The position numbers and the translations under genes were made by a program. Positions 13,773-63,111 of a DNA stretch of 64,000 nt are shown piece by piece (position 1 is the stretch's first letter; each line of letters begins with the position of its first letter). The notes below the pieces were generated by a model. It saw nothing but the letters and a program-made list of their open reading frames with translations. It did not search any database and was not told the origin of the DNA. This DNA comes from Algoriphagus aquaeductus (lineage in GTDB: Bacteria > Bacteroidota > Bacteroidia > Cytophagales > Cyclobacteriaceae). The stretch lies in NCBI RefSeq assembly GCF_003253485.1, contig NZ_QKTX01000020.1, positions 1 to 64,000 of the forward strand. The letters run 5' to 3'.

Positions 13773-13810
13773 TCATCTTTTTTAGTTCCAGATATCCCCT
13801 TTTTTTAATG

Positions 13811-13837
13811 AAAAATACCCAGTAGTGGGTATTTTTT
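13811..13837. repeat. Box A palindrome (AAATACCC...GGGTATTT), island copy 1
   Basis: AAAAATACCC, AGTAGT, GGGTATTTTTT forms a strong hairpin flanked by A and T runs, so it could also terminate transcription in either direction. Near-identical boxes occur at 19012, 23736, 25334 and 53041. Confidence 0.75.
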
Positions 13838-13993
13838 CATCCATGAAACTCCTTTTCTTTAAACAAGAATTTTAATGGAGAAAATAGTTGAGTCTGACTT
13901 TTTCAAAGCAATCGCTATAGTCAAAGCGGAATTGACCCCTCCCAAAATTTGTCCAATCTAATTTGAAAAGGTAGAAACTATAAATCCGTGTCT

Positions 13994-15157
13994 ATGAGCT
14001 GGTTTAAGAGCAATTTTAGATCCAATGACAAGATCTCAATTACTGTGGAAGAAGTAAATCCGCAAACCGAAAATGAATTTCGATTTTTCAACTTTGTAGA
14101 ACGTGAGCAGGTCTTTTTTCTGGAGAAATGGTTTGAGCAGTCCAAAAGGTTAGGCCATCAGTTTAAGCCACAGTATTCAGATGCAATAGTGCAGAAAATC
14201 AGAACTGGAACCTTCAGCAACCCACACAGTTTTCCTGAATATTTCAACTCTGAATTTGACTTTATAGCCATTGATTTCGAAACGGCCAATAATAATAGAG
14301 TGAGCGCTTGCGCTTTGGGTTTGGCATTTGTTAAAAACGACACCTTTGTGCATGAAGAGAAACACTTTATTCTCCCTCCACCTGGTGAAAAAATTCTAAG
14401 TTCTCATGAGCGATTACATGGAATTCAAGAAGAGGACCTAGAATTTGCACTTGATTTTAAAGAACTATGGGATCTAGAGTTTTCTAAATACTTTAATAAT
14501 AATCTCATCGTCTTTCACAATTCGAGTATGGACTTGAGTGTCTTGAAAAGACTATTCTCCCACTACAAGATAGAGAATTACAGCATCGATTACATAGACA
14601 CCATGAGGCTTGCCGAAATATCGGGTAAGCCAAAGAAACTAACTGAGCTTGCAAACCTGTTTGAAGTTCCCATCATTAAGCATCACGATCCTAAAGAAGA
14701 TGCAAAGGCATGCGCTACTATTTTTACGGAACTGAAAGAGCTTGTACCTAATTATCGAGACCTTATACAGATTCTAAATCCTAATCTTATAGCAGAAAAG
14801 CAGTTCTCAAGAGCAGGAAGATTGAAGATTCAAAATGATAATTTGGATATTATCTCGGAATATTCCATTTCAAAAAAAGAGCTTGAGGATCTCCAAATCG
14901 AAGGTTCAGCATTCCTTTTCACAGGGGAGCTTACGGAGGACAGAGAGGACTGTAAGGATTTTATTATGGGGTACGGTGGTCTAATTAAATCAACCATAAC
15001 GAGTAAAGTAGATTATGTGGTTGTTGGAGCTGAATACGGCTGGTCGAAAATCCAAAAAATTCACCTCCTGAATTCCGAAAGAAACCTCCGAATTAGGCTT
15101 CTTTCGAATGCTGACTTTCTACGATTGAAAGAAAGATACGAGAAGTTAAATTTCTAG
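13994..15157 (+). CDS. DnaQ-like 3'-5' exonuclease with C-terminal BRCT domain
   Basis: The product has 387 residues from the ATG at 13994; a GTG two codons upstream is an alternative start. After about 90 residues without a known domain comes the DEDD exonuclease: FIAIDFETANNNRVSACALG (Exo I), VFHNSSMDLSVLKRL (Exo II) and KHHDPKEDAKACATIF (Exo III, with the H-x4-D pattern). The last 90 residues form a BRCT domain (AFLFTGELTEDREDCKDFI, later SKVDYVVVGAEYGWSKIQKI). The arrangement resembles the epsilon-like exonuclease/BRCT proteins common in Bacteroidota and Firmicutes. It probably trims DNA or RNA 3' ends in repair. Its position inside the island also allows a defence role, which is not shown. 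Confidence 0.8.
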   Translation: MSWFKSNFRSNDKISITVEEVNPQTENEFRFFNFVEREQVFFLEKWFEQSKRLGHQFKPQYSDAIVQKIRTGTFSNPHSFPEYFNSEFDFIAIDFETANNNRVSACALGLAFVKNDTFVHEEKHFILPPPGEKILSSHERLHGIQEEDLEFALDFKELWDLEFSKYFNNNLIVFHNSSMDLSVLKRLFSHYKIENYSIDYIDTMRLAEISGKPKKLTELANLFEVPIIKHHDPKEDAKACATIFTELKELVPNYRDLIQILNPNLIAEKQFSRAGRLKIQNDNLDIISEYSISKKELEDLQIEGSAFLFTGELTEDREDCKDFIMGYGGLIKSTITSKVDYVVVGAEYGWSKIQKIHLLNSERNLRIRLLSNADFLRLKERYEKLNF

Positions 15158-15262
15158 GATGAAATCAAGATCAAGCAAATGGGAGATAGCCCTCTCAATT
15201 AGTGCCTATTGATCTTACAAATCAATTAATCGTCTTTTCATTTTAATTTTTAACCTTTCCGG

Positions 15263-17725
15263 ATGCCAGACTTTCCACACCTATTGTACTCCAAAAGCCC
15301 AGATAAAATCAGAGGTTTTAAAAGAAGGAGGGGACGAGATAGAGAAAAAGAAAATCAAAAGCAGGAGCCTTTACCACCTCTATCTCAAGAAAAAAAGCGG
15401 TTTCTGGCAGCTAGACTAGATGTATATGTTTCAGCGGCGGCTAATAGGATCAAAAATAAAACGCTCGAGGTCCCTTCGAATATTGATCTAATTCAGATCA
15501 ATTTTATTGTCACTTTTGATCTTAAGCTAGAAAACTACTTTCTGGGAAAATACAATTTGTCAGTTATTGAAAAATCCAACTTCAACCGAAATGTCCTCTT
15601 CCGTATAGGCAAAGGGAATGAGTTTAAAGCTTTCATTAAGGATGTTACTGCCGTAAGTAGCCTCAGAGAAGGCGAAGATCATCGAAATCAACCTTATTCC
15701 CGATTGGCTTTGATCAGTGATTTCTACCTTCTGGATTCCAATGGAAGGAAAGGCGTTTTATCAGGTCAGGAAAGTTTTATCTTGACTATCTGCGATATAT
15801 TGGAAAACCCTGAAGCTAGGCTGCAGCTTAATTTTATGACCGATTATTTAAATTCAAAGGGAGTTGAAATAATTGGCAATCAGGAGGCACAAAATCTTCT
15901 TTTTCTTAAAAAAGGCTTCTCCGGACTAGATCAAATTCTTGCTGATAACTTCGATATCGTCAGACTAATCACCTCAGCGAGAGTACCCCTTGTCAAACCT
16001 GGAACGGTCGCCACGCCTATTCGCGCTTATGGATTCGAGGCAGTCATCGAAGAAGAACTGCCTATTGTTTGTGTGGTCGATACGGGTATTCAGTCATCTG
16101 TTGATCCCCTCAAGAAGTTATTAACCGGTATTTCCAGTGACCATACAGGCACTGCTCCCTTTTGGGATGATTCAGGGCATGGTACGGCAGTGGCAGGTCT
16201 AATTGCATTTGGAACAGATTTTTTTAATACCTGGTTGAGGGAAATTCCCGCTAAGGCAAGATTGGCGGTGATAAAGGCTATCCATCAAGAAAACGATGAC
16301 TTGAACATTGTAGCCTTAATTAATGACATTCAGGAACTGCACCTTAGATACGGGATCAGGATTTTCAATATCTCCTTAAATCTTCCCGGTTCAAAACCTT
16401 ACAACGGACCTGTAGGTAAGTTTGCTTACGAATTGGACAAGCTTGCTTATGAATTGGACATCCTTATTGTCAATTCTGTAGGCAACTATAGTTTGGATGA
16501 CATGGATTATTGGGTGTTTGATGGCTCTTTGGATCCTGTTGCTCATTATCCCTCATTTTATTACCAAACGAATCCGGAAATTCCTGGTCATTCCTGTGAA
16601 TTTACCAATCTACAAGAGCCTGCGGAATCCATGAACAACATTTCTGTTGGAGCCTTGGCAGGAAATTTCGAAAATGGAGTCACAGATGGGATTACCCCTG
16701 CCAGAGAATATCCAGCATATTATTCCCGGAAGTTTCATTGGGATATGTCAATCACGATAAATGGTTCAAAGCTTAAGAAAAGCCAAAAGAATAAGCACTT
16801 GGTAAAGCCAGACTTGGTGTTTGAGGGTGGGGATTATTTGAGTCAGGAAGCTGCCATGGAAGTGCTCACCAGTCCCCAAGATAATTCGCCCTACTATGGA
16901 AGACTGGCCGGGACCAGTCTGTCCACTCCTTTGGTCGCCTCCCTGATAGCCCAATTGGTAAAGGAATATCCAACACTAAAGATGACTTCCATTAAAGCGT
17001 TGCTAATTAACTCGGCTGCGTCTCCAAGTGGGACCAATCCACCTCATTTTAATTCAGCAGATGGCAAAAAATTGTATCGTAAACTTACTGGGTTTGGACG
17101 GCCAAATCCTGATCGGCTATTGGAAGGCAATCCTGATTCGATCACTTTTGTGATTGAGGACTCTATTACGTTTGATGATTTCTATTCCTTTGAGCTGAAT
17201 TTTCCGGATTGGGTGTTGTCAACCCAAAATAAGATCGAACTCAGGGCTACATTGGTCTACAAATTCCTTCCAGTCCCCAACAATCATTTAGCTTATCTTC
17301 CCCTGCACATCTCTTTTGGAATATTCAAGCCAGTGGATGTTTCTATCTTGTCTAAACAGGATTTGGAGAATTTCCGATTACGATCAGGAGTCTCTTGGGC
17401 AGAGGATCACTTTGGGGTAGAGGATAGGATATTTTCCAATGTTCAGATGCTTTCTTTCCCTATTTCCAGTCAACACTTTGATCCTGATAATCCTTCAGTT
17501 TCCATAGCCATGCGTTGTCATGGCAAATCAACTATTCCAGATTGGGCTTCCAGGCATTTGCAAAATGAAGAGCATCCATTCTCATTGGTGATTAGCCTTA
17601 GGGAAATCCCAAAAACAAAGGGCTCCAACCTTTCAGGATCGCTTTATAAGGATGTCATGCTGTTGAACGGCCTTCAGGCAATTGCTGATTTGGAGGCAGG
17701 ATCGTCTTTGGAGGCAGAAAATTAG
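15263..17725 (+). CDS. S8 family subtilisin-like serine peptidase paired with an AAA ATPase
   Basis: The product has 820 residues and no signal peptide, so it should act in the cytoplasm. The catalytic triad is present: Asp273 (CVVDTGIQ), His306 (DDSGHGTAVAGLIA) and Ser552 (GRLAGTSLSTPLVAS), with an oxyanion-site Asn in LIVNSVGN. About 250 N-terminal residues form an uncharacterised domain with a basic stretch (GFKRRRGRDREK). A C-terminal extension of about 200 residues looks like a beta-rich domain. Its stop codon overlaps the stop of the AAA gene on the other strand. Cytoplasmic subtilase/AAA pairs recur in accessory regions and are often suspected to be defence modules; usually they are co-directional. 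Confidence 0.82.
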   Translation: MPDFPHLLYSKSPDKIRGFKRRRGRDREKENQKQEPLPPLSQEKKRFLAARLDVYVSAAANRIKNKTLEVPSNIDLIQINFIVTFDLKLENYFLGKYNLSVIEKSNFNRNVLFRIGKGNEFKAFIKDVTAVSSLREGEDHRNQPYSRLALISDFYLLDSNGRKGVLSGQESFILTICDILENPEARLQLNFMTDYLNSKGVEIIGNQEAQNLLFLKKGFSGLDQILADNFDIVRLITSARVPLVKPGTVATPIRAYGFEAVIEEELPIVCVVDTGIQSSVDPLKKLLTGISSDHTGTAPFWDDSGHGTAVAGLIAFGTDFFNTWLREIPAKARLAVIKAIHQENDDLNIVALINDIQELHLRYGIRIFNISLNLPGSKPYNGPVGKFAYELDKLAYELDILIVNSVGNYSLDDMDYWVFDGSLDPVAHYPSFYYQTNPEIPGHSCEFTNLQEPAESMNNISVGALAGNFENGVTDGITPAREYPAYYSRKFHWDMSITINGSKLKKSQKNKHLVKPDLVFEGGDYLSQEAAMEVLTSPQDNSPYYGRLAGTSLSTPLVASLIAQLVKEYPTLKMTSIKALLINSAASPSGTNPPHFNSADGKKLYRKLTGFGRPNPDRLLEGNPDSITFVIEDSITFDDFYSFELNFPDWVLSTQNKIELRATLVYKFLPVPNNHLAYLPLHISFGIFKPVDVSILSKQDLENFRLRSGVSWAEDHFGVEDRIFSNVQMLSFPISSQHFDPDNPSVSIAMRCHGKSTIPDWASRHLQNEEHPFSLVISLREIPKTKGSNLSGSLYKDVMLLNGLQAIADLEAGSSLEAEN

Positions 17726-18759
17726 ACTTTACCGGAGTTACTGATTGCGGTTTTTTCTTCCTCAATCAATTTTTCCCAGATTGCCTTATCAATCTCAACT
17801 TTAGCAGGTACCAAATCAGTCTCCAACTTATACAGACTCCGCTTCATAGCCGAGATAAGGGTCTTTTGGATGCTATAGAAGGACAGCCCTTTTGCCTTCT
17901 GGATCAATCTTTTAATTCCTGATTTGCTGCCCAAGGTAAATACCCCACGCTTGAGTGTCAATTGGATTAACTCCTCGATTTCATGTTCGGCGGGAAGCTC
18001 AAATCCAATCTGGGTATCAAACCTTCTTATTAAGGCATCATCCAGCATGCCAACCTGATTGGTGGCAGCGATCACGATGGTGGACTGAGGCAGGTAGTCA
18101 AACAATTGAAGGATGGTGTTCACCACACGCTTCATTTCACCATGGTCTTGGCTGTAGTCCCTCACCTTGCCCAAGGAGTCAAACTCATCCAAAAACAGAA
18201 TGTAATCCCCTGAGGCAGCCATTTTAAATATTTTCGCGAGATTTTTACTGGTTTCCCCAAGCTTGGAGGAGACGATTGCTCCAAGATTTACCACCAGTAG
18301 GATTTTTTCTAGTTCCCCGGCAATGACATAGGACGCCAAAGTCTTCCCGCAACCCGATGGACCATAAAATAGGATTTTATGAGCTATGGGTAGATCCAGT
18401 GCTTGAAGTAGGTTTTTTTTGCGATGCTCCAGAATAAAATGATCAAGCGATTCTTTGATTTGAGGAGTGCAGATTAGGTCAGATAGTCGGTAGTCCGAAG
18501 TGACTTGGTCAAGAATCAACTCATCTACCCCTTTGCTGTTTGGAGTTTCAAATCGGATTCCAGAACTGGTCTTTAGGGATCCTCCCGAGGAGTGATGGCG
18601 GATGGCTTCTTTCAGAATAGACTGTAGCTGTATGGCCAGATTGGTTTTTTTGCTTTTCCGTGCATGCTCGATCATCTCCTGAAGGGAGTCCTTCAGCTTT
18701 TCCTGGTCATTTTCAAGACCAAACCGGGCAATATCTTTGATGTAATCGAACTGTGTCAC
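17722..18759 (-). CDS. AAA family ATPase, partner of the S8 peptidase
   Basis: The product has 345 residues. A helical N-terminal 80 residues precede a classic AAA module: Walker A GPSGCGKT (133-140), Walker B ILFLDEFD (187-194), sensor 1 Asn in AATNQ, and the arginine-finger pair in ALIRRFDTQIGF. A helical lid domain follows. Its stop codon TAA overlaps the TAG of the subtilase gene (17722-17725), so the genes are exactly tail to tail. It may unfold or recognise substrates for the peptidase, by analogy with other AAA/protease pairs. Three operator-like repeats lie just upstream of its start. Confidence 0.82.
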   Translation of the reverse strand: MTQFDYIKDIARFGLENDQEKLKDSLQEMIEHARKSKKTNLAIQLQSILKEAIRHHSSGGSLKTSSGIRFETPNSKGVDELILDQVTSDYRLSDLICTPQIKESLDHFILEHRKKNLLQALDLPIAHKILFYGPSGCGKTLASYVIAGELEKILLVVNLGAIVSSKLGETSKNLAKIFKMAASGDYILFLDEFDSLGKVRDYSQDHGEMKRVVNTILQLFDYLPQSTIVIAATNQVGMLDDALIRRFDTQIGFELPAEHEIEELIQLTLKRGVFTLGSKSGIKRLIQKAKGLSFYSIQKTLISAMKRSLYKLETDLVPAKVEIDKAIWEKLIEEEKTAISNSGKV

Positions 18760-18786
18760 TTGCGGGAGCGCATTAAATGATTATGA

Positions 18787-18843
18787 TTTGCGAAAATCAC
18801 TCCAATAATTCTGCGATATTCACTTAAATCCGCGAAAATCGCT
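18787..18843 (-). promoter_or_regulatory. Three direct copies of GCGAWAWTCRC upstream of the AAA gene
   Basis: TGCGAAAATCACT (18789-18801), TGCGATATTCACT (18812-18824) and CGCGAAAATCGCT (18831-18843) are spaced 23 and 19 bp apart. Each copy is itself a near palindrome, GCGA-nnn-TCRC. They start 30 bp before the AAA gene, which fits an operator array or iteron-like binding site for a regulator. Confidence 0.5.
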
Positions 18844-19011
18844 AAAAGTATACTTACAAAGTAAGCATTTTGTTGACAAAGTCTCTTGCCATCTATTAAA
18901 AACTAATCGAGATATTTGACTTTGAGTAAAGAATTTTTGAACCGGTGAGAAAGCAATTTGATCTGTGGATAAAAATTGAATTCAAGGACTGAATTTTTTT
19001 AACCTTAACCC

Positions 19012-19215
19012 AAAAATACCCACTAGTCGAGGACTAAGCTTTAAGAAACAATCCGGTAGGACTGAGCGTCAAGAATTAATTCAGAAGATTAATCTAGCGA
19101 GGTGCCATTATGCAGGGAGGCCTTTTAGCCTTGGTCGGGATCTAGGGCGGACAAATCCTACCCAGTCAAAACGAGCATTTGACTACACCAGACGAAGGGT
19201 TAAGAATCCTCCCTT
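19012..19215. repeat. Composite intergenic element, copy 1 (segments A-half, B, D)
   Basis: A half box AAAAATACCCACTAGT (19012-19027) is followed by segment B (TTAAGAAACAATCCGGTAGG at about 19041, then CTAGCGAGGTGCC and TGCAGGGAGG) and by segment D (GGCGGACAAATCCTACCCAG, later GCATTTGACTACACCAGACG). The same segments occur in the same order at 25331-25745. No coding sequence is present. It separates the AAA gene from the 3' end of the Avs-like gene. Confidence 0.65.
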
Positions 19216-19247
19216 ATCCCTAACATTTTTGCAGTCTTTTCTATATT

Positions 19248-22200
19248 TTAATTCAATACATTTTCCATGGCTTCCAGTGCTTTATATCTTATTGAAGGAA
19301 TGCCAAGAAGTCTATCGAAACAGTCCAATGCCGTCTTTTGCTCTTCACGGTATTTAAAGGGTTCAAGCCTTAGTCTGGAATAAATTGCTAATACCAGAAT
19401 CAATGGTTCATCACCAGAATAGGCTTTCTTGCTGATATCAACCTTGTCCGGAATATTCATTTTTACAAGTAAATCCAAACATTCTTTTGGATATAAAGAT
19501 GAACACTCTGTCAAAAACTCCAACAGGTATCTTGGATCGTTACTGAATTGATTGGTAGCAATATATTTTTCCATGAAGCTGTAAAGCTCTCCAAAGTTTT
19601 CAATTTTAAACACCCTTAGCACTAGCCCAGAAAATTCGTGTGAAAGATCGAATTCGTTATGTGACAAACATCTTTCCAATACTTGCACTGATCGCTGATC
19701 AACTATACCATCCTTAATCAAAAAACTTTCTGCTACCTCGATGGCACATTCTATCGCTTTCTGGCCCAGCCCCATAAAACGGTCATACATTTTGAAATCA
19801 TTAATATGATCAAAGAGCCAGCTGTTTACAAAAAAGTAGCATTTATCATATAATTCTTCGTGCAATAGCATTTCTTCAAAATAGAAACCCATTCTATCAT
19901 GGAACTTATTGTTAAAATACTGTGCAGGATTGATGGAACATTCTAATACCCGTGAATCTTTTTGGGCGATAAGCTTCTTGAAAATTACGAAGGAACGTTC
20001 GATATCAAAGTGGTTCAAGTAGGCAAGATGAAACATTACACCTGCCAGAATTGTAGTTGATGGATTATTTTTGGGATCAATAGCGAATTCAATCGTAGAG
20101 AGCACGTCCTCCTTGTAGTTTGGATAATCGAACAGGTAAAACAAGTTATAAATCGCTGATCCTCTTGGTGTATTGATAAAATCTGAAATCGGATGATTAG
20201 GGTTTAGCAAATCATCGCGATATCCTTCTGATTTGGCAATTCCAATCAAGAAATCCTTGATATCTTCAGTAACCTGCTTCGTGTCGATTAGGTATTTAAT
20301 ATGCCAAGTAACATAAAGAGTAAATTCTCTGTTTAAGGATAGCTTTATTTCCCTTCTAACAAGGTTGGCGACCTCTTTAGGGTTATATTTTGCCTTGATC
20401 AATGCAGATATACCATGAGAGATGTAACGATAAGATATACCCTTTTCATTAAACAGCTGCCCAATAAAATTACAGAAATGTTCGGGACGCCTTTCCACTA
20501 CGCTTTCAAAAGATCTCGAAAGCTCAAGTATACCTCCCTTGAAAAAATCAGCAGATTTAAAATCCTCATCAATTTTCCGCATACTTTTTAACCAGGCATC
20601 GTAACTGAATTTGTTAAAATTCGCATTCGATAATGGGGAACCTACACCCCCAAACCTACTATTGCCACTATCCAGAGCTCTGTTATGATCGATTCGTCCA
20701 AAACGTCTTTCCAATACAATATATATTAGCTTTAACTCACGATCTTTTTCCAGAACTATTTCGGGAAGTGCTTTTAAAAACAAGTACTTTTTTCGGCCGA
20801 TGGTGAGGCTAAATTTCTTCTTTCCATTTTCTTCATATTTCCATATCTCATAGGGATGGGTGATATTTAGTAGTAGTTTTTTAACCCTTTGGTATTGCCT
20901 TAGATCAAAAAGAGATATGGCTTTAGCAATCATTCTGCGAATGTTTAGCTGGAAAAAATCATCTTCCCCCATCAGACCATTCTTGGCTTCGATGATCAAT
21001 AGTAGTTGGTAGATTTCCTCAATAAATTCACTACTCCTATCCCGCATCAATTTTGTTAAAAGAGTGAGCAAAGCAACATAGTTCGTCGAGGAATGTTTTT
21101 GGATAAGTTCTTTAAGTACTTTTCTTTCGCACGTGCTGTAATATTTAAGCAGGTAAAAATCTATTGATTTTTCATCTTCGCTGTCTTTATATAACAATCC
21201 GTTATCAAGCTGATAGGAGCCTAGCAGTTCGGAGGTAATTCCTAAATATTCAAAATAATAGGCGTGTTTGGTTTCTTCCAGAATTTCTAATTGAACAGAG
21301 AGCAAAAATTCAGCGGTCTTTTGAGGGTTTTGTTGATACAAATTATCAATAATTCTATCAAAGCGATGGTCGAATCTAAAACGTTTAGTACGGCTTTTTG
21401 TCTTCAAAATTACTGGCTTGAGCTTTCCAAATACATATTCCAGATTAAAAGGAGCTATTTTTTTTAAAGTCTCAAAATACCAAAGTTCTGTATTCTCATC
21501 GTATAGAAAGTAGTTATCAAAATAGGGTAAAAGTTTGGCATCCCAGTTTTTGACACTCGGTATAATGTCTGCTATAAACTTATTTTTTTCTCCAAAATTG
21601 CCATTTTCTAAATGATCCAAAACAAGCTTTGCATTATGGTTGATGTTTCGGTAAAGAATTCTGAACACATCATTTTGATTACCATAAAGCAGATGATTTG
21701 AAATAAAAAACTCGATCCAACCTTTTGAATTGAATAAGTCAAGAAACAATTTCCCATATTCATTCGCTAGCATATCACATACCAGCTCTTTCTCCTTCTG
21801 CGATGGATTTTCTACAAGTCCAAGTTCCAGTATAAATAAATATTTGATATGATACCTGATCTGGTCGTGATCAATTATATTTTTATAGAGTTCTATATAT
21901 TTTTTATGATCGGCCTCCCTAAGGTACTCAATAACGGTCTTGATCAAAGACCTGATATACAGGTTCTGTCCTTCCTCAAAAATATAGTCGATCAGTTTTC
22001 TGTCGGAGATTACGAACCATCGAGCCAGATAATACTCATAAAATGATTGATGAAAGAAAGAAAGTTTACTTTCGTTCTGTACCAGGATTTCATGGGATAC
22101 TAGATAACTTATTTCTGGTTTGAATTCTTCTAGATATTTCAGCTCAATTAGATTTGGATGCTGTTCATACATCCTTTTCACAATTGCATTTAGGCATTCG

Positions 22201-23528
22201 GTGAGCAATAGTTCTCTCGGGATCATCACTTGACTCCATAATTCGGAATAGAGTTTAGTCAATGAGATCCTTGACTGTTTCTGCAACAGTTGCTCTAAAT
22301 TTGGAATTTTGGTGAAAAGTTCAAGATTATAAGGTATCGTAAGCAGTTCGATCAGAAGTTTATTTTTTGTTTCGAGTTTAAGTAGCTTTAAAATGTCTGT
22401 TACTTCCGTCTCAGACAACTTTCCAACCTCAATCTGCTTGATAACATGTGTGTCATTGAATTTTCTCAGATCGGCATCGTAATCAAGATCGAAACTCCTG
22501 GTCGAGATTATAATTCTTGCATTTGGCAGCTTGAGCAGTTCCTGAATAAGCTTTATATATGTCTTTAGCCATCTCCTGTCCGATGATAAGGTTTGGGATA
22601 GTGCGTCTAGTTGGTCAAGTACAACTACAAATTTTTCACCTTTGTCCCGAAGTGTGTTAAAAAGTTCATTGAATGATGCTAAATCGGTAAACAGCTGTTT
22701 AGCAAGGCCGTCCAAATTTACATCATAAAACTGGTCACACTTGATAGCAAGGACATTATATTCGTTTTCATTTGCCAATTGATAATAGACATCATGCAGA
22801 ATTGTTGTTTTACCAACCCCTTTTTTACCTTTTACGACAAGCATCTTTTCTAAAATCTCCTTGCCAGGCAAATCCCTCTTTACCCATGTTACAATTTCCT
22901 GGACTGCTTGCCTCTCTACATGTGCTAGCTTATTCTTCGAAAAGTAATTTTTGAGGTTCCTAACATAGTTCGAAGCAGATAAAATTTCTTGATTCAGGTC
23001 AAACTTTTTGCCGACTACAGCACTGTGAATATCTCTTACTGCGTTTTTTATTTCTATTTCAAAGGCTTCATCATACAGGCCGAAGGTTTTTAATTCATCG
23101 ATAAGATCGGCTCCATCCATAAGTTTGATGCAATCATTTGGTAATCCAAAGGTGTTTATCTGCCTATGCTTCCAACTTGCCCACCATTTGTGCTCTTGGA
23201 TACTTAACTTTCCGGGCAAGCAAAGTATCCAATTGCTGACCTTAAAATCACTTGAACCTATAGCAGTCTTAAAGGATTTCCTTACCTGGGCCTTTTGTGA
23301 CTCCTCGAAACCGTTGACAAAAAACTTGCATTGGATGACCTTTATTGGCTGGTTTTGAATATCTCCAATAAATACATCGACTCCACCGTCACCGATATCA
23401 ACCCGTACCGATTTCACGCATTCCCCCTTAAATTTATGTTTGAATAGCGTAGTACAGATGTCTTCAAATTTGCTTCGGGCACCAGATGTGGTGTATCTAT
23501 TGACCAGGGAAATCCATTCGTCCATCAT
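19248..23528 (-). CDS. Avs-like STAND NTPase with N-terminal Mrr-type nuclease
   Basis: The product has 1,426 residues. The N-terminal nuclease (about 15-150) has the Mrr/PD-(D/E)XK layout GGVDVFIGD and VIQCKFF, with D51, Q66 and K68; Gln in place of Glu is typical of Mrr proteins. A P-loop STAND/NACHT-like NTPase follows, with Walker A GKKGVGKTT (234-242) and Walker B VVVLDQLDALSQ (from 301). The remaining 1,000 residues are almost all helical and lack a known enzymatic motif, as expected for a TPR/HEAT-like sensor. This order (effector, NTPase, sensor) is that of antiviral STAND proteins, which bind conserved phage proteins and then cut DNA. The sensor does not let me assign an Avs subtype. 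It is a single-gene unit on the minus strand. Confidence 0.75.
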   Translation of the reverse strand: MMDEWISLVNRYTTSGARSKFEDICTTLFKHKFKGECVKSVRVDIGDGGVDVFIGDIQNQPIKVIQCKFFVNGFEESQKAQVRKSFKTAIGSSDFKVSNWILCLPGKLSIQEHKWWASWKHRQINTFGLPNDCIKLMDGADLIDELKTFGLYDEAFEIEIKNAVRDIHSAVVGKKFDLNQEILSASNYVRNLKNYFSKNKLAHVERQAVQEIVTWVKRDLPGKEILEKMLVVKGKKGVGKTTILHDVYYQLANENEYNVLAIKCDQFYDVNLDGLAKQLFTDLASFNELFNTLRDKGEKFVVVLDQLDALSQTLSSDRRWLKTYIKLIQELLKLPNARIIISTRSFDLDYDADLRKFNDTHVIKQIEVGKLSETEVTDILKLLKLETKNKLLIELLTIPYNLELFTKIPNLEQLLQKQSRISLTKLYSELWSQVMIPRELLLTECLNAIVKRMYEQHPNLIELKYLEEFKPEISYLVSHEILVQNESKLSFFHQSFYEYYLARWFVISDRKLIDYIFEEGQNLYIRSLIKTVIEYLREADHKKYIELYKNIIDHDQIRYHIKYLFILELGLVENPSQKEKELVCDMLANEYGKLFLDLFNSKGWIEFFISNHLLYGNQNDVFRILYRNINHNAKLVLDHLENGNFGEKNKFIADIIPSVKNWDAKLLPYFDNYFLYDENTELWYFETLKKIAPFNLEYVFGKLKPVILKTKSRTKRFRFDHRFDRIIDNLYQQNPQKTAEFLLSVQLEILEETKHAYYFEYLGITSELLGSYQLDNGLLYKDSEDEKSIDFYLLKYYSTCERKVLKELIQKHSSTNYVALLTLLTKLMRDRSSEFIEEIYQLLLIIEAKNGLMGEDDFFQLNIRRMIAKAISLFDLRQYQRVKKLLLNITHPYEIWKYEENGKKKFSLTIGRKKYLFLKALPEIVLEKDRELKLIYIVLERRFGRIDHNRALDSGNSRFGGVGSPLSNANFNKFSYDAWLKSMRKIDEDFKSADFFKGGILELSRSFESVVERRPEHFCNFIGQLFNEKGISYRYISHGISALIKAKYNPKEVANLVRREIKLSLNREFTLYVTWHIKYLIDTKQVTEDIKDFLIGIAKSEGYRDDLLNPNHPISDFINTPRGSAIYNLFYLFDYPNYKEDVLSTIEFAIDPKNNPSTTILAGVMFHLAYLNHFDIERSFVIFKKLIAQKDSRVLECSINPAQYFNNKFHDRMGFYFEEMLLHEELYDKCYFFVNSWLFDHINDFKMYDRFMGLGQKAIECAIEVAESFLIKDGIVDQRSVQVLERCLSHNEFDLSHEFSGLVLRVFKIENFGELYSFMEKYIATNQFSNDPRYLLEFLTECSSLYPKECLDLLVKMNIPDKVDISKKAYSGDEPLILVLAIYSRLRLEPFKYREEQKTALDCFDRLLGIPSIRYKALEAMENVLN

Positions 23529-23735
23529 ATATATTTATAATTGGTTAAATCCCATAAATGGATTGGGAAGAACCTCTTAAACAGACCTATAAATACAGAT
23601 AGGGAGGTTTACTCAAAAGTAACCAATTCAATAAAAAAGAGAAAATATGATTTCAAGACAATTTTTTTCCTACTTCGGATTTAAAAAACCTCGTTAAACC
23701 ACTCAAAAAACCTCACTTTTTCCGCATTCACCCCC

Positions 23736-23975
23736 AAAATACCCAGTACTGGGTATTTTTTAGTTTCAGATTTTTCCCTTTCTTTAGCAACCAACTCACT
23801 ACCATCCAATTGCCAATCCTTAACGAATCAAACGATTCCAGCATTTCTGAGATTTCTTGATTTTCCGTTTCTTCAAAATGCTTCGACTCGAGGCTAGGGC
23901 TGTCTGGAATGGGCCGGAATATTCAATCTTTCGCTGCTTGATCGCCTTCTCCTTAAGGAGAATGTAGGGGTGAGG
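23736..23975. repeat. Composite intergenic element, copy 2 (segments A, C)
   Basis: It begins with a perfect 24-bp palindrome, AAAATACCCAGT joined to its reverse complement (23736-23759). About 215 bp of segment C follow, including CAACTCACTACCATCCAATT, GATTCCAGCATTTC and TGATCGCCTTCTCCTTAAGG. The same segment C is at 25412-25630. Fragments of segment C read as protein on the minus strand, but the two copies do not keep one frame. Confidence 0.7.
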
Positions 23976-24111
23976 TAGAATTGGCAGTTTTAACTGCAAT
24001 CTGGGATACCGTTTTCCTAAGGCCTCTCTTTTTTGGCCAGATTGCGTTTAAAACTCTTTACGTTACCAGCAATAATAGCGGACATGACACGAACTAATAA
24101 AATTAGAAATT

Positions 24112-24543
24112 ATGAGTGACGAAAAAATAGACAAAGAACAATCGGACTCGCAGAGTGAAAAGTCATCTGACAAAGGAAACGAAAGTCCAAAATCAAGAAA
24201 GGCTTTTTCAAAATTAAGACGTGAACTTTCTGACGAAGAATTAAATTCTCCTGCTGTTCAAAAATTGCTTTTGGACAACCTTGACCAACTCGAAAACACA
24301 AATTTTGAGTTGGAAATATTTGAAGAAAATTTTCATGCTGTTGACAAAGAAAAAGCAGTTCTTGAAGAAAAACTTAAAAGCACTAAATCATCTGAAATCT
24401 TATATACGTTCACTTTGACAATTGGTGCTGCAATTATGGGCTTAGCACCAACTTTTTGGACGACAGGTTACGGATGGTTAGTTGTAATAGTTGGTTTTCT
24501 ATTAGTGCTTGGTGGTTTAATTTCTAAATTTGCAAACAGATGA
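24112..24543 (+). CDS. Coiled-coil protein with two C-terminal membrane helices
   Basis: The product has 143 residues and is not recognised. A charged, probably disordered N-terminus (1-30, rich in Ser, Asp, Lys) is followed by a helical segment likely to form a coiled coil (about 35-95, with ENTNFELEIFEENFHAVDKE). Two closely spaced hydrophobic helices (ILYTFTLTIGAAIMGLA and GWLVVIVGFLLVLGGLI) close the chain, with a short cytoplasmic tail. Its stop overlaps the start of the next gene by four bases, so the two are translationally coupled. Small two-helix membrane proteins of this type often act as effectors in defence pairs. That role is a guess from the setting. Confidence 0.65.
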   Translation: MSDEKIDKEQSDSQSEKSSDKGNESPKSRKAFSKLRRELSDEELNSPAVQKLLLDNLDQLENTNFELEIFEENFHAVDKEKAVLEEKLKSTKSSEILYTFTLTIGAAIMGLAPTFWTTGYGWLVVIVGFLLVLGGLISKFANR

Positions 24544-24902
24544 GTATTCAAATAAAATATATAAAGAATAATGGTTCAGCAGACGAAGAACGTATCGTTT
24601 TTGAAGTCACTAAAGATTGTGATATAGGATATTACTTAGTTTGCGATACCTCTTACACTTCAGACGGAAAAGTTTCAAATAAATTGAGACATCCATACTG
24701 GTTTCCAGACAAAGATGTTAAAATTGGCGACCTTGTTGTTTTATATACAAAAAAAGGGACAAACAACTCAAGAGTGAACAAAGACGGTAGCACTTCTCAT
24801 TTCTTTTATTGGGGTTTGGACAAAACAATTATTAATAATGACAATGACTGCATAGTCCTAATTGAATCTAAGAATTGGACAGTAAAAGGTGTTAAAGGAT
24901 AG
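24540..24902 (+). CDS. Hypothetical beta-rich protein, partner of the two-helix membrane protein
   Basis: The product has 120 residues with no signal peptide. It is rich in predicted beta strands, with KIGDLVVLYTKKGTNN in the middle followed by SHFFYWGLDKTI. The pattern of a glycine-containing turn before a hydrophobic strand and an aromatic SHFFYWG stretch is reminiscent of PUA/EVE-like barrels, but I cannot assign it to a family. It overlaps the upstream gene by ATGA and is followed directly by the right inverted repeat of the cassette. A sensing role paired with the membrane effector is possible. Confidence 0.6.
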   Translation: MSIQIKYIKNNGSADEERIVFEVTKDCDIGYYLVCDTSYTSDGKVSNKLRHPYWFPDKDVKIGDLVVLYTKKGTNNSRVNKDGSTSHFFYWGLDKTIINNDNDCIVLIESKNWTVKGVKG

Positions 24903-24962
24903 AATTACTGCTGGTAACAACTAAGCTTTCGTGCGGCTTGCAAAGCCAAGCATGAAACCGCT

Positions 24963-24980
24963 TCCCGAAAGCTTTCGGGA
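24963..24980. repeat. Perfect 18-bp palindrome
   Basis: TCCCGAAAG and CTTTCGGGA form a perfect palindrome just downstream of the cassette, inside non-coding DNA. It may be a hairpin of a dispersed repeat or an operator. Confidence 0.55.
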
Positions 24981-25330
24981 CGGAGAGGTTCTTATAGGGA
25001 TTGAGTCAGGATTCTTGGAGGTATTTGAGGAGGCTGTTCAAGTCAAAAAGTAAATCCTACCTACCAAAATCAACATATAGTCAAAAAATTGGATCTTTTT
25101 CAGTCCCTCCAAACTTGTTTTGGAAGGGCTTTTTTGTAGCTCGGGCATAGCTTCCCCAGCCCGACAAAAATCCGGAATCAAAATGGGATGGATTCGGATG
25201 AAAAGGTCGCCTTTGGCGGGCCCCTTTTTGGCTGTCTTTGGATGCTTATCATACTCTTCTTCTGGCATCATGAGATATCATCAACCCCAAAAATTCTCTC
25301 TTCCCCCTCCCTTTTTTCTCCTTTACCACA

Positions 25331-25745
25331 ATAATACCCAGTACCAAAACAAGCCCTTAAGAAACAGTCCGGTGGACTGTTTTAGCGAGGGGCCAGCTTG
25401 CAGGGTTGCTTAGTTCCAGATTTTTCTCTTTCTTGAGGAACCAACTCACTACCATCCAATTGCTATCCTTTATCCAAACTAAATGATTCCAGCATTTCGG
25501 AGAATTCTTGATTTCCGCTTTCTGATAGATGCTCCGGTTCAATAGAGTACAGTAAGAATTAGAACAGAATCTCTAAGTCTACCACTGCTTGATCGCCTTC
25601 TCCTTAAGGAGAATGAGGGATGAGGTAGTGTGGGAAGAGTGAGGTAGCAAAGCCAATTGAAAATTGTTAAGGAAATAAGGGTGGAATTGCAAATCCCACC
25701 CAATCAAACGAAATTTGACTACTCCCAGAAGGATTAATCATATTC
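25331..25745. repeat. Composite intergenic element, copy 3 (segments A-half, B, C, D)
   Basis: This is the fullest copy. The half box AATACCCAGTAC (about 25333) is followed by segment B (AAGAAACAGTCCGGTGGACT, then GCGAGGGGCCAGCTTGCAGG, 25359-25405), segment C (25412-25630, matching copy 2) and segment D (AAATCCCACCCAATCAAACG, then AATTTGACTACTCCCAGAAG, to 25745). Segment B contains the hairpin CAGTCC-GGT-GGACTG. No credible gene lies in this 900-bp gap. Confidence 0.7.
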
Positions 25746-42603: not shown

Positions 42604-42791
42604 AACCAACGACCCTTTTTTAACCCATCAAAAAGGGACAAACCGTTTCATCCACTGCCTACTCTGAAAAGGGTTTTCGGCATCTCCCTTTTGGGGTTCA
42701 TTGGTATTGACCAGTCTCTCACCCTGGCCATCGAGAGAAATGAACCTCTTTTTGTATTTTTTGCAGCCAATCCTTGCAACTATGTGGCTGC

Positions 42792-53040: not shown

Positions 53041-53060
53041 AATACCCTATATCGGGTATT
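53041..53060. repeat. Box A-like palindrome upstream of the RHS gene
   Basis: AATACCC, TATATC, GGGTATT, then a T-run. It is the same arrangement as the island boxes and lies 58 bp before the RHS start, where it could act as a leader terminator. Confidence 0.55.
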
Positions 53061-59800: not shown

Positions 59801-61210
59801 GGAGACAGTGTGGAGATCGGAGTTTTTGGGAAATATATGGATCCTAAGAAAGTCAGATTAAGCCCGGCCAGTTTCGTTCGAACAGGATTGGACCAAAAGA
59901 TAATCCGAACCTTAGGGGAGTATGGTCAGAATCTGGCAGCCTCTCCCAATGAAATAGCGATCGCCAATGTAATCGCCTTGGTAATCTCAGAAGTACAGCA
60001 AAAACCTGCACCCGAGGCCTATATGGGCTATGCACTCTATGATTCGGATTCCGTCTTATATGAGCAAGGTAAAGTCGTCTTAAGTAAGGAAGCAAGAAAT
60101 AAGCATGAGGAACTGATACAAAAGCTGGCGATCAAAAAGGATGGGTATATCGAGACCTATTTGGTCAATGAAACATCTGAAAACGTTTGGTTTGACCAGT
60201 TCCGGATCATGAGTACAGGTCCCTTGATCGTGCAGGAGACCCATTATGATCCTTGGGGGGTAGATCTCTCGGGACTAGGATACCAATATGGAGGAATCAA
60301 GGTGAATCCTTACCTTTATAATGGCAAAGAGCTGACTAGTGGCCTTGGAGTGATTATGTATGATTACGGAGCGAGGTTTTACATTCCGGCGATTGGTAGA
60401 TGGTTTGTGCATGATCCTTTGGCGGAGAAGGCGAGAAGACAAAGTCCATATAACTACGCACTCAACAATCCGATGCGTTTTATCGACCCGGATGGCATGG
60501 AGGCGTATTCGGTGATGGGGGGGATTACGGTAGATGGGTATTTAGCTCCTGAAGACGTAAACATGCCAATATCCCCAAATGGAGGAGGAAAAGAAGTCCA
60601 ACGTAAAAATGCAGAACGAGCCAAGCAACAACAAGAATCGCGAAATAGAGTAAATAATGAAATTAGGCAGAGGGCTGGATTAAGGGTAAATGAAAATATG
60701 GCTTCAAGTATGTCCTTTCCAGAAAGATCTCTACCAAATTTAATGGTTGCGGAAAGGGCTCAAAATGTAAGTGATTTAATAAATCCAAGCGGTGGAGCAT
60801 TAAGAGGGCAGGATGCTTATGGAAGTGGGCACTTTGGAGCCTCTCGAGATGGAGGTGGCAGGAAGCATATGGGTATTGATATCTTAACGACTGTGGGTCA
60901 AAATTTGGTGTCTCCGGTTACAGGTAGTGCTGTGAATTATACTGGGGCTACCTCTGGAAAGCCTATGATCGATATCACACCTTCTAACTCGACCTTAGGT
61001 ATTGATAAAGTAAGAATATTATATGTTAATATTCCTTCTGGTGTGAATGCTTGGAAAAAATATAATGTTACAGCTGGGCAAACAATAATTGGCACAGCTG
61101 CTAATTTAGGAGCATTGGGTTACCCTAAAGGCATAACTCCACACATTCATGTACAAATAATGGTAAAAGGGAATTGGGTTGATCCAACTCCATATTTCTT
61201 TGGACGATAA
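56897..61210 (+). CDS. RHS core protein with C-terminal LytM (M23)-like toxin
   Basis: The product has 1,437 residues. A signal peptide ends at GLSAQ, then a DUF6443-like entry domain (LNWVREYSSRDTLTNAFSLR) and many YD repeats. The RHS core lies at about 1136-1200 ([40 protein letters not shown], then [12 protein letters not shown]), the usual cleavage and toxin boundary. The variable tip ends in an M23 peptidase: H1324-MGI-D1328 and H1416-I-H1418 keep both zinc motifs, followed by WVDPTPYF. It should cut peptidoglycan peptides in a rival periplasm. The gene just downstream encodes an exported protein, as expected for immunity to such a toxin. Confidence 0.85.
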   Translation: MKSLFAFALIFTLCKGLSAQVVSSSACTTVLPSAPSETITASNSVNLIAQNAPSGFAYRWYDSNGTTLLSSSQVFSTPIITASRLFYLAYVHSSSGCLTTKVPVWVYFYPENLNWVREYSSRDTLTNAFSLRGSAHKVSYKSTNYHDGLGRTVQTVQLSASSDGSDVVGTLAFDAFGRQYRDYLPFPNNDSGSKGKFRTNAASLNSTYYTTAYSDSKGYADKTFESSPLNRVIKQGVPGVAWNNKDVQINELTNTASEEVRIWTLDGSGLPVTSANFATGMLNKTEVFDEDLRRVIEYKDKLGRLILKKVQESGSPSVTHTGWLCTYYVYDSFGRLRVVMPPKAVFEIISNSQSSTAATIRDGLYYLYTYDERGRQITKKLPDKGIEEMVYDLQDRLVAYRDANLAGLGKWLYTKYDALGREVMTGLVTNSSDRQTLQTTINTLGANNAVINATSGKTGTTNAGGFPRAIDGGEGEVLTVNYFDHYTFRKGTLTYSKPNTAYHDQTTKTHGLLTGKLVRNLDNNTLYETAIYYDDLGRLIQTIEDHHLGGTIRSSSRFDFENKPIETISQLTTPGTQTITKNYAYNNAGLLTSISHKINSDPAVTLVNFQYDQLGQLTNKTFPVAANAAMNYTYNIRGWLKRINNPQESNATDKVFAQELFYESGGDSPQFNGNISKAEWRGQDNTKRIYNYFYDANNRIKDALYTVPDYSWQDGRYNIGYVNYDANGNIQTLQRVNQQTASIWALVDNLAYSYGTHSNKLTYVYDYQTNPTYLAKDYKNLGTSTYNYDANGNLLGNNDQYSVVITYNHLNLPKSIVFSGTGRSLTYWYNAEGVKVRQVNVEGATTTTLDYLGEFVFEKINSGANTLSYIMHEEGRAAYENSAFQYEFFVKDHLGNVRQVVRAPQSTLRMATMEPEKAEEEEELFDNIKESRQGASEHNKTPGGYATAWLNADRGRILGPSRSQEVQQGDSVEIGVFGKYMDPKKVRLSPASFVRTGLDQKIIRTLGEYGQNLAASPNEIAIANVIALVISEVQQKPAPEAYMGYALYDSDSVLYEQGKVVLSKEARNKHEELIQKLAIKKDGYIETYLVNETSENVWFDQFRIMSTGPLIVQETHYDPWGVDLSGLGYQYGGIKVNPYLYNGKELTSGLGVIMYDYGARFYIPAIGRWFVHDPLAEKARRQSPYNYALNNPMRFIDPDGMEAYSVMGGITVDGYLAPEDVNMPISPNGGGKEVQRKNAERAKQQQESRNRVNNEIRQRAGLRVNENMASSMSFPERSLPNLMVAERAQNVSDLINPSGGALRGQDAYGSGHFGASRDGGGRKHMGIDILTTVGQNLVSPVTGSAVNYTGATSGKPMIDITPSNSTLGIDKVRILYVNIPSGVNAWKKYNVTAGQTIIGTAANLGALGYPKGITPHIHVQIMVKGNWVDPTPYFFGR

Positions 61211-61644: not shown

Positions 61645-61734
61645 AATAAAAAGTAAATGCAGCTTTTTACCCTCTCTGTTACCAAGGTATTAGTCATAAT
61701 AATCCCAAATTAAGGGACCATTGCCAAAGTGATT

Positions 61735-62101
61735 GATTGCCTTAGTAATTTCAGAAGTCCAGCGAAAGCCGGCTCCGGAAGCCTATATGGGCTATGCGCT
61801 TTATGATGCAGACAGTAATCTGTATGAACAAGGAAAGGTCATCCTATCCAAAAGAGCCCGAAACAAACACGAGGAACTGATTCAAAAGCTGGCGATCAAG
61901 AAGGATGGCTAGATTGAGACCTACCTGGTCAATGAAACGGCTGAGAACGTATGGTTTGACCAGTTCCGAATCATGAGCACGGGTCCACTGATCGTGCAAG
62001 AGACCCATGGCGCCTGTCCCGATGAACGCAGCGATATCGGGAATCCTTGGGGAGTGGATCTCTCGGGACTAGGTTACCAATATGGAGAGGACCGAGCGTA
62101 A
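61735..62101 (+). pseudogene. Decayed copy of the RHS segment before a displaced tip
   Basis: The sequence follows the intact gene from LVISEVQ to GLGYQYG (compare 59975-60295) with one in-frame TAG (61910-61912, TAT to TAG by position), and a 36-base insert at 62009-62044 that replaces two codons. It then runs into a second insert and stops at 62099-62101. It cannot give a full RHS protein. It is a relic of an earlier tip exchange and a stretch of homology for further ones. Confidence 0.85.
62009..62044. repeat. In-frame palindromic insert in the RHS relic
   Basis: A 36-base piece with stem TCCCGAT/ATCGGGA adds 12 codons (GACPDERSDIGN) in place of the two codons YD seen in the intact gene, and keeps the frame. 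Confidence 0.7.
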
Positions 62102-62150
62102 ATAATCAGTCTTGTGGACTGATTTAGCGAGGGGCCAGTTTGCAGGGCTG
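62102..62150. repeat. Segment B of the composite element, inserted in the RHS relic
   Basis: AATCAGTCTTGTGGACTGAT then TTAGCGAGGGGCCAGTTTGC and AGGGCTGG matches segment B at 25359-25407. It interrupts the RHS relic between the codons for QYGG and VNPY; its end supplies the TTG start of the next frame. Confidence 0.75.
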
Positions 62151-63099
62151 GGTGAATCCTTACCTTTATAATGGTAAAGAGCTGACTAGTGGCCTTGGAG
62201 TGATTATGTATGATTACGGAGCAAGATTCTACATCCCGGCGATTGGGAGATGGTTTGTGCATGATCCTTTGTCGGAGTTGATGAGAAGTAATTCCCCATA
62301 TAATTATACCTTCAATAACCCCCTAAGGTTTATTGATCCAGACGGGATGGCTCCTTATTCAGTACAGGGGACACCGGTAGTTTCAGGAGAAAGTATGAGC
62401 CAGGATTGCCCTAATTGCTCAAATGAAGAAGAAAATGGTTCAATATATGGTGAAGGTGCAGTAGTCCAGAATCGTTTTGGAGCATCCCAATATCGGGATG
62501 GTAAATGGGTGAAAATATGGTCTGCTCCTATGAGTGAAAATAGTTCTGAAGGAATAAGAATTAATGGGATGTTTGGAGGTGGAAGTAATGGTTCTGGGAC
62601 CAAAGAAAATAAAAGTGTAGGACAGCCAGGAACCTTAGAGAGCATGATTCCTATTTGGGGAAGTGGTAAGGCTGCAGTAGACGATTTCCAAAATGGTAAA
62701 TATGGTTGGGCAGCATTTAATTCAGCTATTGCAATTTCTGATATTTTCTTGGTTAAATCTATTGCTACAGGAATTGGAAAAGGTGCTTGGAAATTGGGTT
62801 CTCATTCATGGAGCGCTACCAGAAAATGGCTGAATAAAAAAGGCTATGCAGAATCAGGACAACCAGTTCATCACTGGGCTATACATCAATCAACTGCTAA
62901 AAAATACGGTTTGGAAGCGGTAGCAAATCAACCTTGGAATTTGATGACATTTCCAAATCAAAGTTTACATTTTAGAGCAGGTCATGGTTTGAATTATTTG
63001 GGACAGCCAGGCTATGGGGCATTAGGTCAGTATTGGTATGGTACTCCTACTTGGTTTAAAGCAGGTACTATTTCAGGCGGGGGGCGAATTGTAGATTAA
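62140..63099 (+). CDS. Displaced RHS core fragment with putative HNH-like nuclease tip
   Basis: The frame begins with a TTG inside the inserted repeat and enters the RHS core at [20 protein letters not shown]. After DPDGM the tip differs wholly from the first one: a pre-toxin part with [20 protein letters not shown], then [20 protein letters not shown] and [20 protein letters not shown]. The HH...NQPWNLM...H arrangement is typical of HNH-fold (LHH/SHH/GH-E-like) nuclease toxins. Without its own RHS shell it should be silent until recombined onto the main gene. The product from this start is 319 residues. Confidence 0.7.
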
Positions 63100-63111
63100 A
63101 TTGAAAATTAT

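Follow-up and report, generated by a model that had tools for sequence, protein, structure and literature searches.

A composite hairpin-rich element at module borders in Algoriphagus defence islands, a candidate source of homology for module exchange

How defence genes become adjacent and exchange as units is an open question. Repetitive extragenic palindromic (REP) elements and bacterial interspersed mosaic elements (BIMEs) are associated with RAYT transposases, pneumococcal BOX elements are modular, and group IIC introns insert at attC sites. For the Bacteroidota, a review counts the phylum among those with integrons (PMC8618304), and in the IntegronFinder 2.0 paper the complete integron named for the Bacteroidetes is that of Salinibacter ruber M1 (PMC9024848). 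Among the literature matches listed, none deals, judged by title and opening of the abstract, with an element such as the one described here or with Algoriphagus cassette arrays. Here we analysed a 64-kb stretch of Algoriphagus aquaeductus DNA (the window; bases 1–64,000 of the 66.7-kb contig NZ_QKTX01000020.1, or C20, in a genome of 4.9 Mb and 47 contigs), in which modules of defence genes are separated by copies of a composite non-coding, hairpin-rich element, termed E. On balance we lean, with limited confidence, towards the reading that E stands at the borders of exchangeable modules in islands and provides homology for recombination between modules. The islands concerned belong to one genus of the Cyclobacteriaceae, very likely Algoriphagus. 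Module borders are directly readable here, as a shared element, a chimeric copy and integron-type cassette ends occur in the same islands.

The first-pass annotation of the window had described four co-oriented copies of an element with the ordered segments A to D. A profile built from 18 long copies in several species gave a 645-nt consensus with a fixed order of parts: a leader, the A palindrome, an optional B hairpin, C, a T hairpin, a partial repeat of C with a second T, and D. The copies in the window are eroded and reach at most about 455 nt (Table 1). Two of them carry the full A palindrome and two a half copy, and B and D lie on the plus strand in both regions that hold them, as first described. 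C recurs in two window copies (23760–23978 and 25410–25628), which form the strongest pair in the window with 77.6% identity over 223 nt and 162 bits, compared with 24.7 bits for the top of 40 base-composition shuffles. The description of C as one segment was nevertheless incomplete, as C consists of a core plus the T hairpin and falls into two subfamilies, one of them previously unseen. In pairwise alignment of the four regions, four of the six pairs scored above the top of 40 shuffles (162, 43.7, 42.8 and 26.5 bits, the last being a weak match of a 14-nt half palindrome on the opposite strand), whereas 13811/25331 and 19012/23736 did not. By its layout, E may be likened to the BOX elements of pneumococcus, which also show ordered modules, optional parts and intergenic copies; it differs from them in its greater length and in its position between island modules.

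Single segments A, B and D also occur as isolated copies. The initial use of A alone as a sign of the element did not hold: five of the ten palindromes with at most one mismatch in this genome lack C (two of these five, 13811 and C31:12752, retain a short C2-like flank; C numbers denote contigs of this genome), and isolated A is present in other genera of the family. The idea that A is part of E only was rejected because of these isolated copies, as was that of C as a pseudogene fragment, since no frame is open in every copy. A comparison of the window with Rfam at the gathering level gave no described RNA family for E, with DUF805b as the sole match; microRNA family names among the matches below the cut-off are meaningless here. 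Palindromes of the form AATACCC-6N-GGGTATT stand about 60–75 nt 5' of start codons in several genera (window 53041–53060; loci L011, L017, L070, L072 and L074) and may be operators, and the AATACCC/GGGTATT arms recur at locus L307, in a hairpin between a recombinase gene and the first cassette.

This genome contains nine C copies, four recognized by a model of the first-subfamily core (R1; C9:176237, C31:3592-3260, C20:25404 and C20:23735) and five by a second-subfamily model (R2; C29, two on C31, C34 and C9:173869), all of them being the models' own seeds. At an E-value of 1, the R1 search of this genome found no C core beyond both subfamilies and weak partial matches, together with isolated D pieces elsewhere. 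Thus, the four copies of the window are real, but there are others at C9 (two), C31 (two joints), C29 and C34. The nine C copies and two partial window joints make up ten joints, eight of which have a direct neighbour with a PADLOC match (E-value ≤1e-3); at the C29 and C34 joints, scanned on one side, the downstream gene had no such match. The neighbours include HEC-09, DEDDh, IetAS, an LmuA-like NACHT protein, PDC-M29, SIR2-HerA, bSEFIR, a PLD protein and Fic. In the window, the island comprises a type IIG enzyme, HEC-09, a DEDDh exonuclease, IetS and IetA, a NACHT protein with an LmuA-like start, and PDC-M29, while the copies on other contigs adjoin bSEFIR, SIR2-HerA, the PLD protein and Fic, with an Mrr-type nuclease and capP/capH one or two genes beyond these.

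R1 matches with E-values of at most 0.01 were found in 54 of 72 genomes, many of them to the T–D part only; 22 candidates were scored per genome, and the per-genome counts are lower bounds. The E profile gave 130 merged matches in 757 kb of islands (own loci included), a set selected for having E matches. An even spread over intergenic regions was not seen: eight 20-kb background stretches of this genome (160 kb) contained no E match, and 398 kb of evenly spaced background from two closed relatives contained two, one at an island edge. In closed genomes the matches are grouped in islands, where the element and the genes run mostly in one direction. Among 40 genes behind E in relatives, 16 had a PADLOC match at 1e-3 (5, 0, 4 and 7 per batch) and 14 at 1e-10. 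These 40 genes represent 48 elements, with nine omitted in all (opposite-strand nearest genes, repeats and a near-identical copy) and a second gene behind the L192 element added. In the control, 100 background genes matched 26 families at 1e-10, which corresponds to about 12 genes provided that models sharing a name hit a single protein, and to at most 27. The difference is significant with 12 (p = 0.003), but with 27 it amounts to 35% versus 27% and says little. Hence the predicted enrichment of E beside defence genes is clear in this genome and moderate in relatives.

The annotation had also anticipated strain pairs differing by exactly one module between two copies. One such difference was found, between species rather than strains, and involves about 5 kb. 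At locus L182 of one relative, the order is first block, element, about 5.2 kb containing two more elements, another element and second block, whereas locus L223 of the other relative has both blocks (93% and 97% identity) with a single element between them. This single element is chimeric: on one side, 183 nt match one L182 border element and its flank at 95% identity; on the opposite side, 157 nt match the second border element at 97%. A chimeric element at the shorter allele is what recombination between copies predicts. Other comparisons showed a cytosine-methyltransferase module shared by L174 and L187 (91–95% identity) and flanked on each side by an element, outside which the neighbours differ, a 1.8-kb module of L184 and L224 (99% identity) whose right end falls at an element in both and whose left end does so in only one, and a 1.7-kb stretch of C31 that is 98–99% identical in another species and breaks within the element at one end. 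An element array of a relative contains a 72.7% counterpart of the window's IetAS pair. Some other strongly similar blocks in the same comparison end away from elements.

The ends of similar blocks were then counted. Of 126 such ends, 24 lie inside E on both sides; the expectation is 0.96 with random placement and 7.7 with intergenic placement (0 of 1000 draws). Near-identical insertion sequence copies (L181, L183 and L184) and ends within 80 nt of a fetched end had been dropped. A version of this test with E masked was biased by the masking; it was redone unmasked and then with the intergenic null, which weakened the result.

We propose that REP-like hairpins accrete at module borders and build up E, at least one such border being an integron-type cassette border. 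The many co-oriented E copies would then offer homology for recombination that deletes, adds or swaps the intervening modules, and no dedicated recombinase recognizing E is proposed. The integron system would be a likely first source of some modules. From the anatomy of E, its clustering, the covariation of its hairpin and the chimeric joint, all directly observed, we infer recombination between E copies as the process. With hairpin stretches between modules, whole-module differences and a cassette-built module, the genus may shuffle its defence genes like beads on a string. The suggestion that shared joints serve as recombination points is partly supported, although it had overlooked that an integron-type cassette forms at least one of the window's module borders.

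Several observations weigh against this proposal. With the intergenic null, block ends lying in E on at least one side number 35 versus 50.8 expected, and the two-sided excess is confounded, as a fast-diverging E can itself end an alignment. Because the one-sided count is low and alignments may stop in diverging E, the L182/L223 example outweighs the block-end test. That example is the one clear chimeric joint worked out, the comparisons being between species, and the compared copies are mostly 66–88% alike, which makes them a poor substrate for homologous recombination now. The E matches used in the orientation counts below are not independent, since pieces of one element were counted apart, and co-orientation of E partly reflects the co-directional genes of the islands. 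As for cargo, one batch of 10 downstream genes in relatives was without a defence match, and the PADLOC control is inexact, having been read from family names and taken from this genome rather than from relatives.

The building blocks of E are themselves short hairpins. Among Rhs-type paralogues, the copy at about 60241–60360 is without B and T, whereas two others carry both; the pseudogene tails with B and T hairpin insertions lie in the window at 61700–63100 and on contig C20 at 63900–64500. B and T thus represent separately inserted hairpins, because the paralogue retains their empty sites, and the earlier idea that the joints are relics of a spreading element was partly right. The B insertion in the Rhs pseudogene replaces about 8 nt of the paralogue, and no target duplication was seen when it was compared with the empty-site paralogue. 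The B hairpin covaries: 93.8% of its cells are paired, and changes on both sides affect 15 cells (0 of 500 shuffles). Hairpins of the TCCCGA/TCGGGA type are likewise present in certain elements, inside the T stem, and within the att core of the cassette in the window. The Rhs empty sites, the covariation of B and the nested TCCCGA hairpins look like a pattern of short mobile hairpin accretion. Like REP elements and BIMEs, B, T and D each combine a short hairpin with fixed flanks and occur both scattered and in clusters (covariation being shown for B), and RAYT-family genes are present, with eight PF01797 matches (G000 contigs C7 (two), C12, C9, C10, C25, C8 and C4, loci L023–L030). In contrast to these systems, the RAYT flanks contain, as judged by eye, mostly other palindromes, abundant ones in several cases, and a hairpin distantly resembling D lies about 500 nt from the match at L026. 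The RAYT genes were accordingly considered a less likely source of B and D, their flanks mostly differing; D may be linked through L026.

Such accretion may also have been passive. On this account, independent hairpins of the REP or MITE (miniature inverted-repeat transposable element) type settled preferentially in non-essential island borders, took one orientation to replication mechanically and inherited their order from a few old piles, while modules moved otherwise. The empty sites of B and T, the isolated copies of B, D and A, and the one-sided block-end count, which is not above intergenic chance, are all compatible with it. So is the orientation of E relative to replication, because a leading-strand preference fits mobility via single-stranded DNA: judged by GC skew, the leading-strand orientation is that of 30 of 30 E matches in a first closed genome and of 19 of 21 in a second, and 15 of 16 islands of these two genomes follow the broad GC-skew half (p = 0.006 versus background genes, of which 178 of 284 are on the leading strand). 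Skew was sampled in two of five closed genomes searched, the other three holding 11 E matches; islands were grouped by hand, and the skew halves are broad, with a few single samples of opposite sign and one island near the switch point. The full order kept over the 645-nt consensus in 18 copies from several species speaks against passive accumulation, and a chimeric E at a module difference would be unexpected. We regard this account as possible but doubtful. The accounts weighed here are not mutually exclusive, and the likelihoods given for the favoured reading and its rivals overlap.

E could alternatively act as a regulatory leader, with A as an operator and the whole as a structured 5' region controlling the downstream defence module. 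Neighbouring genes are mostly co-oriented with E (41 of 48 downstream and 39 of 48 upstream, E matches above 1e-5 having been dropped from these counts), and the median distance from the detected part of E is 151 nt to the gene that follows, compared with 364 nt to the gene before it (the latter distance being inflated because the left part of E was undetected in that count). Isolated A palindromes about 60–75 nt before several start codons agree with an operator role. However, the 19012 element is followed by a gene on the opposite strand (19248–23528, minus), B stems vary freely, and the genes downstream of E have no single function in common. A regulatory role as the explanation of E is therefore improbable.

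A different line of evidence comes from the region between the 23736 and 25331 elements, where the first feature list had missed a separate feature at 23990–24983, consisting of an X motif, cassette ends and an attC-like hairpin. Here two small genes form an integron-type cassette, which starts with GTTACCAGC at 24062 and ends with GCTGGTAAC at 24910–24918, followed by the hairpin, whose R arm is broken by an inserted hairpin. We interpret the X motif as the right-hand half of an att site. Both here (24963–24980) and at L312 near 14930, a TCCCGA/TCGGGA hairpin has inserted into, or taken the place of, the 3' core or flank of the attC-like site. The attC-like structure A6, with R, spacer and L arms, is supported by covariation: 83.3% of its cells are paired, and changes on both sides affect 14 cells (0 of 500 shuffles).

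A model (R3) built from nine hairpins of this kind, that of the window included, was run on 874 kb of islands and own loci, where it gave 13 sites (E-value <1e-3, its nine seeds among them), and on 558 kb of background, where it gave none; its sites in 35 of 71 genomes of the genus are the independent result. From 34 sites, three without a usable tag were dropped and some are mutual copies; an exact inverted partner of 9–10 nt was present upstream at cassette-like distance at 14 of 31 (shuffled-tag rates at most 0.04) and was not found at the remaining 17. Inverted ends around open reading frames (ORFs) amounted to 28 pairs for 219 ORFs in loci chosen for R3-type sites, compared with 1 for 501 in background. 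There were 9 pairs for 667 ORFs in the element islands of relatives (p = 0.05 versus background), only a few of which precede an attC by eye, and 1 for 56 in the own islands, with no att-like site after it; the window contains exactly one. A 34-base att pattern matches 12 stretches in named genomes, of which Algoriphagus accounts for 11 and Echinicola salinicaeni (L330) for one; on this basis the genus is taken to be Algoriphagus. Many attC-like hairpins are followed by a constant sequence (GTTGCACGGAACCGG...), as if at the last site of an array (for example L305, L313 and L322), and several contigs end there. Among proteins beside attC-like sites, 4 of 10 have a PADLOC match at E-values of at most 1e-3.

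In relatives, five of nine tyrosine recombinase genes (L305, L306, L307, L311 and L312) have a cassette start 28–89 nt behind them with its partner at a gene end. The 9-mer pairs at two further recombinase genes were judged to be chance, not lying at a gene end, and 28 of 400 background windows also had a pair. At these five loci, recombinase and cassettes share one reading direction, with a small hairpin between them, and L311 and L312 carry several cassettes in tandem. No protein from the 71 genomes passed the IntI model TIGR02249 (cut-off 265 bits), the best listed reaching about 230 bits summed over two pieces. The L307 recombinase has IntI4 (2a3v) as its best PDB match (3.5e-41, two stretches), and that of L311 is closer to XerC/XerA-like chains. 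As in integron cassettes and CALINs (clusters of attC sites lacking an integrase), the window module and the 28 pairs of relatives have GTT...AAC inverted ends, most of them with an att-like sequence after the stop codon, and as in integrons a tyrosine recombinase gene precedes the first cassette. The failure of the IntI model and the co-directional recombinases set these loci apart from integrons, and the findings point to an integron branch in the Bacteroidota outside current models.

E itself differs from an integron site in that it has a 645-nt consensus, is not cassette-specific and showed no inverted GTT/AAC cassette core at its D end in the consensus or in the copies read by eye; as no such core was seen, the identity of E with attC was rejected. 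Its matches are absent at seven of eight loci with a recognized recombinase gene, which means that the integron feature and E overlap but are not identical. A further account holds that each joint was once an attC or attI site, that E is its remnant or replacement, and that modules first moved in a site-specific manner. It draws on the window cassette with its exact inverted ends and attC-like hairpin, on the R3 sites in islands versus none in background, on five attC-like sites with E about 30–330 nt downstream (L185:6435, L174:3575, window 24911, L032:3912 and L240:8297) and on the short distance, at most about 25 nt, that separates the end of E from the X motif in the window, on C31 and at two loci of one relative. 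The small number of inverted-end pairs in E islands, few of them before an attC, the absence of any att trace at several joints and the recombinase loci without E make an origin of every joint in this way rather unlikely. We put forward only tentatively a broader version, in which the genus would have its own integron-like system (a tyrosine recombinase outside the IntI model, with defence cassettes), whose decayed att sites would gather hairpins into E, so that shuffling would pass from site-specific to homology-driven.

Table 1. Positions of E parts, the integron-type cassette and related hairpins in the window.
Feature	Position	Strand	Support or remark
A palindrome, isolated, upstream of the DEDDh gene (13988–15157)	13814–13833	strandless	R2 match 13798–13875 at 2e-8; a short C2-like flank may follow
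Half A palindrome	19012–19026	+	76% over 71 nt versus the 25331 region
B hairpin unit	19057–19120	+	Covariation
D segment	about 19131–19191	+	R1 263–328 (E-value 0.1, weak); E1 594–660
Leader immediately 5' of A	23711–23737	+	Repeat family D2, alignment
A palindrome	23738–23757	strandless	Full palindrome
C core and T hairpin (CTCCTTAAGGAG...GGGGTGAGGT)	23760–23989	+	R1 2.8e-65 (R1 seed); 82% versus C9 copy
X motif ending CTTTAC, directly left of the cassette start	24014–24061	+	Common to C31 and two loci of one relative
Integron-type gene cassette, ORFs 24112–24543 and 24540–24902	24062–24918	+	Exact inverted 9-mers
attC-like hairpin; 3' core from about 24963 replaced by TCCCGA/TCGGGA hairpin	24911–24971	+	R3 68.4 bits, 2.9e-16 (own seed); fold z -3.35
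Longest window E copy: leader, half A, B, C, T, D	25282–25735	+	E1 198–667; R1 25404–25736 at 2.8e-76 (R1 seed)
Half A in the longest copy	25333–25344	+	
B hairpin within the longest copy	25352–25410	+	Covariation
D in the longest copy	about 25640–25735	+	
TCCCGA...TCGGGA hairpin insertion, same Rhs-type pseudogene as the next row	62010–62042 (limits approximate)	+	Not in paralogue
B hairpin insertion in Rhs-type pseudogene	62090–62149	+	Paralogue at about 60241–60360 without B

Remnants with a stem like domain V of group II introns lie directly behind attC-like sites at L032:2407–2502 and, as read by eye, behind L032:5112. Their position on C31 resembles that of group IIC introns; unlike these, the first remnant scores 30.8 bits against Rfam Intron_gpII, below the cut-off of 40. 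At L175:4134, L177:9307 and L177:12867 the D end of E is joined directly to what appear by eye to be pieces of a RadC-like gene and of tyrosine recombinase genes. Apart from these loci, the window carries a DUF805b RNA (Rfam RF02914, above the cut-off) at 42656–42690.

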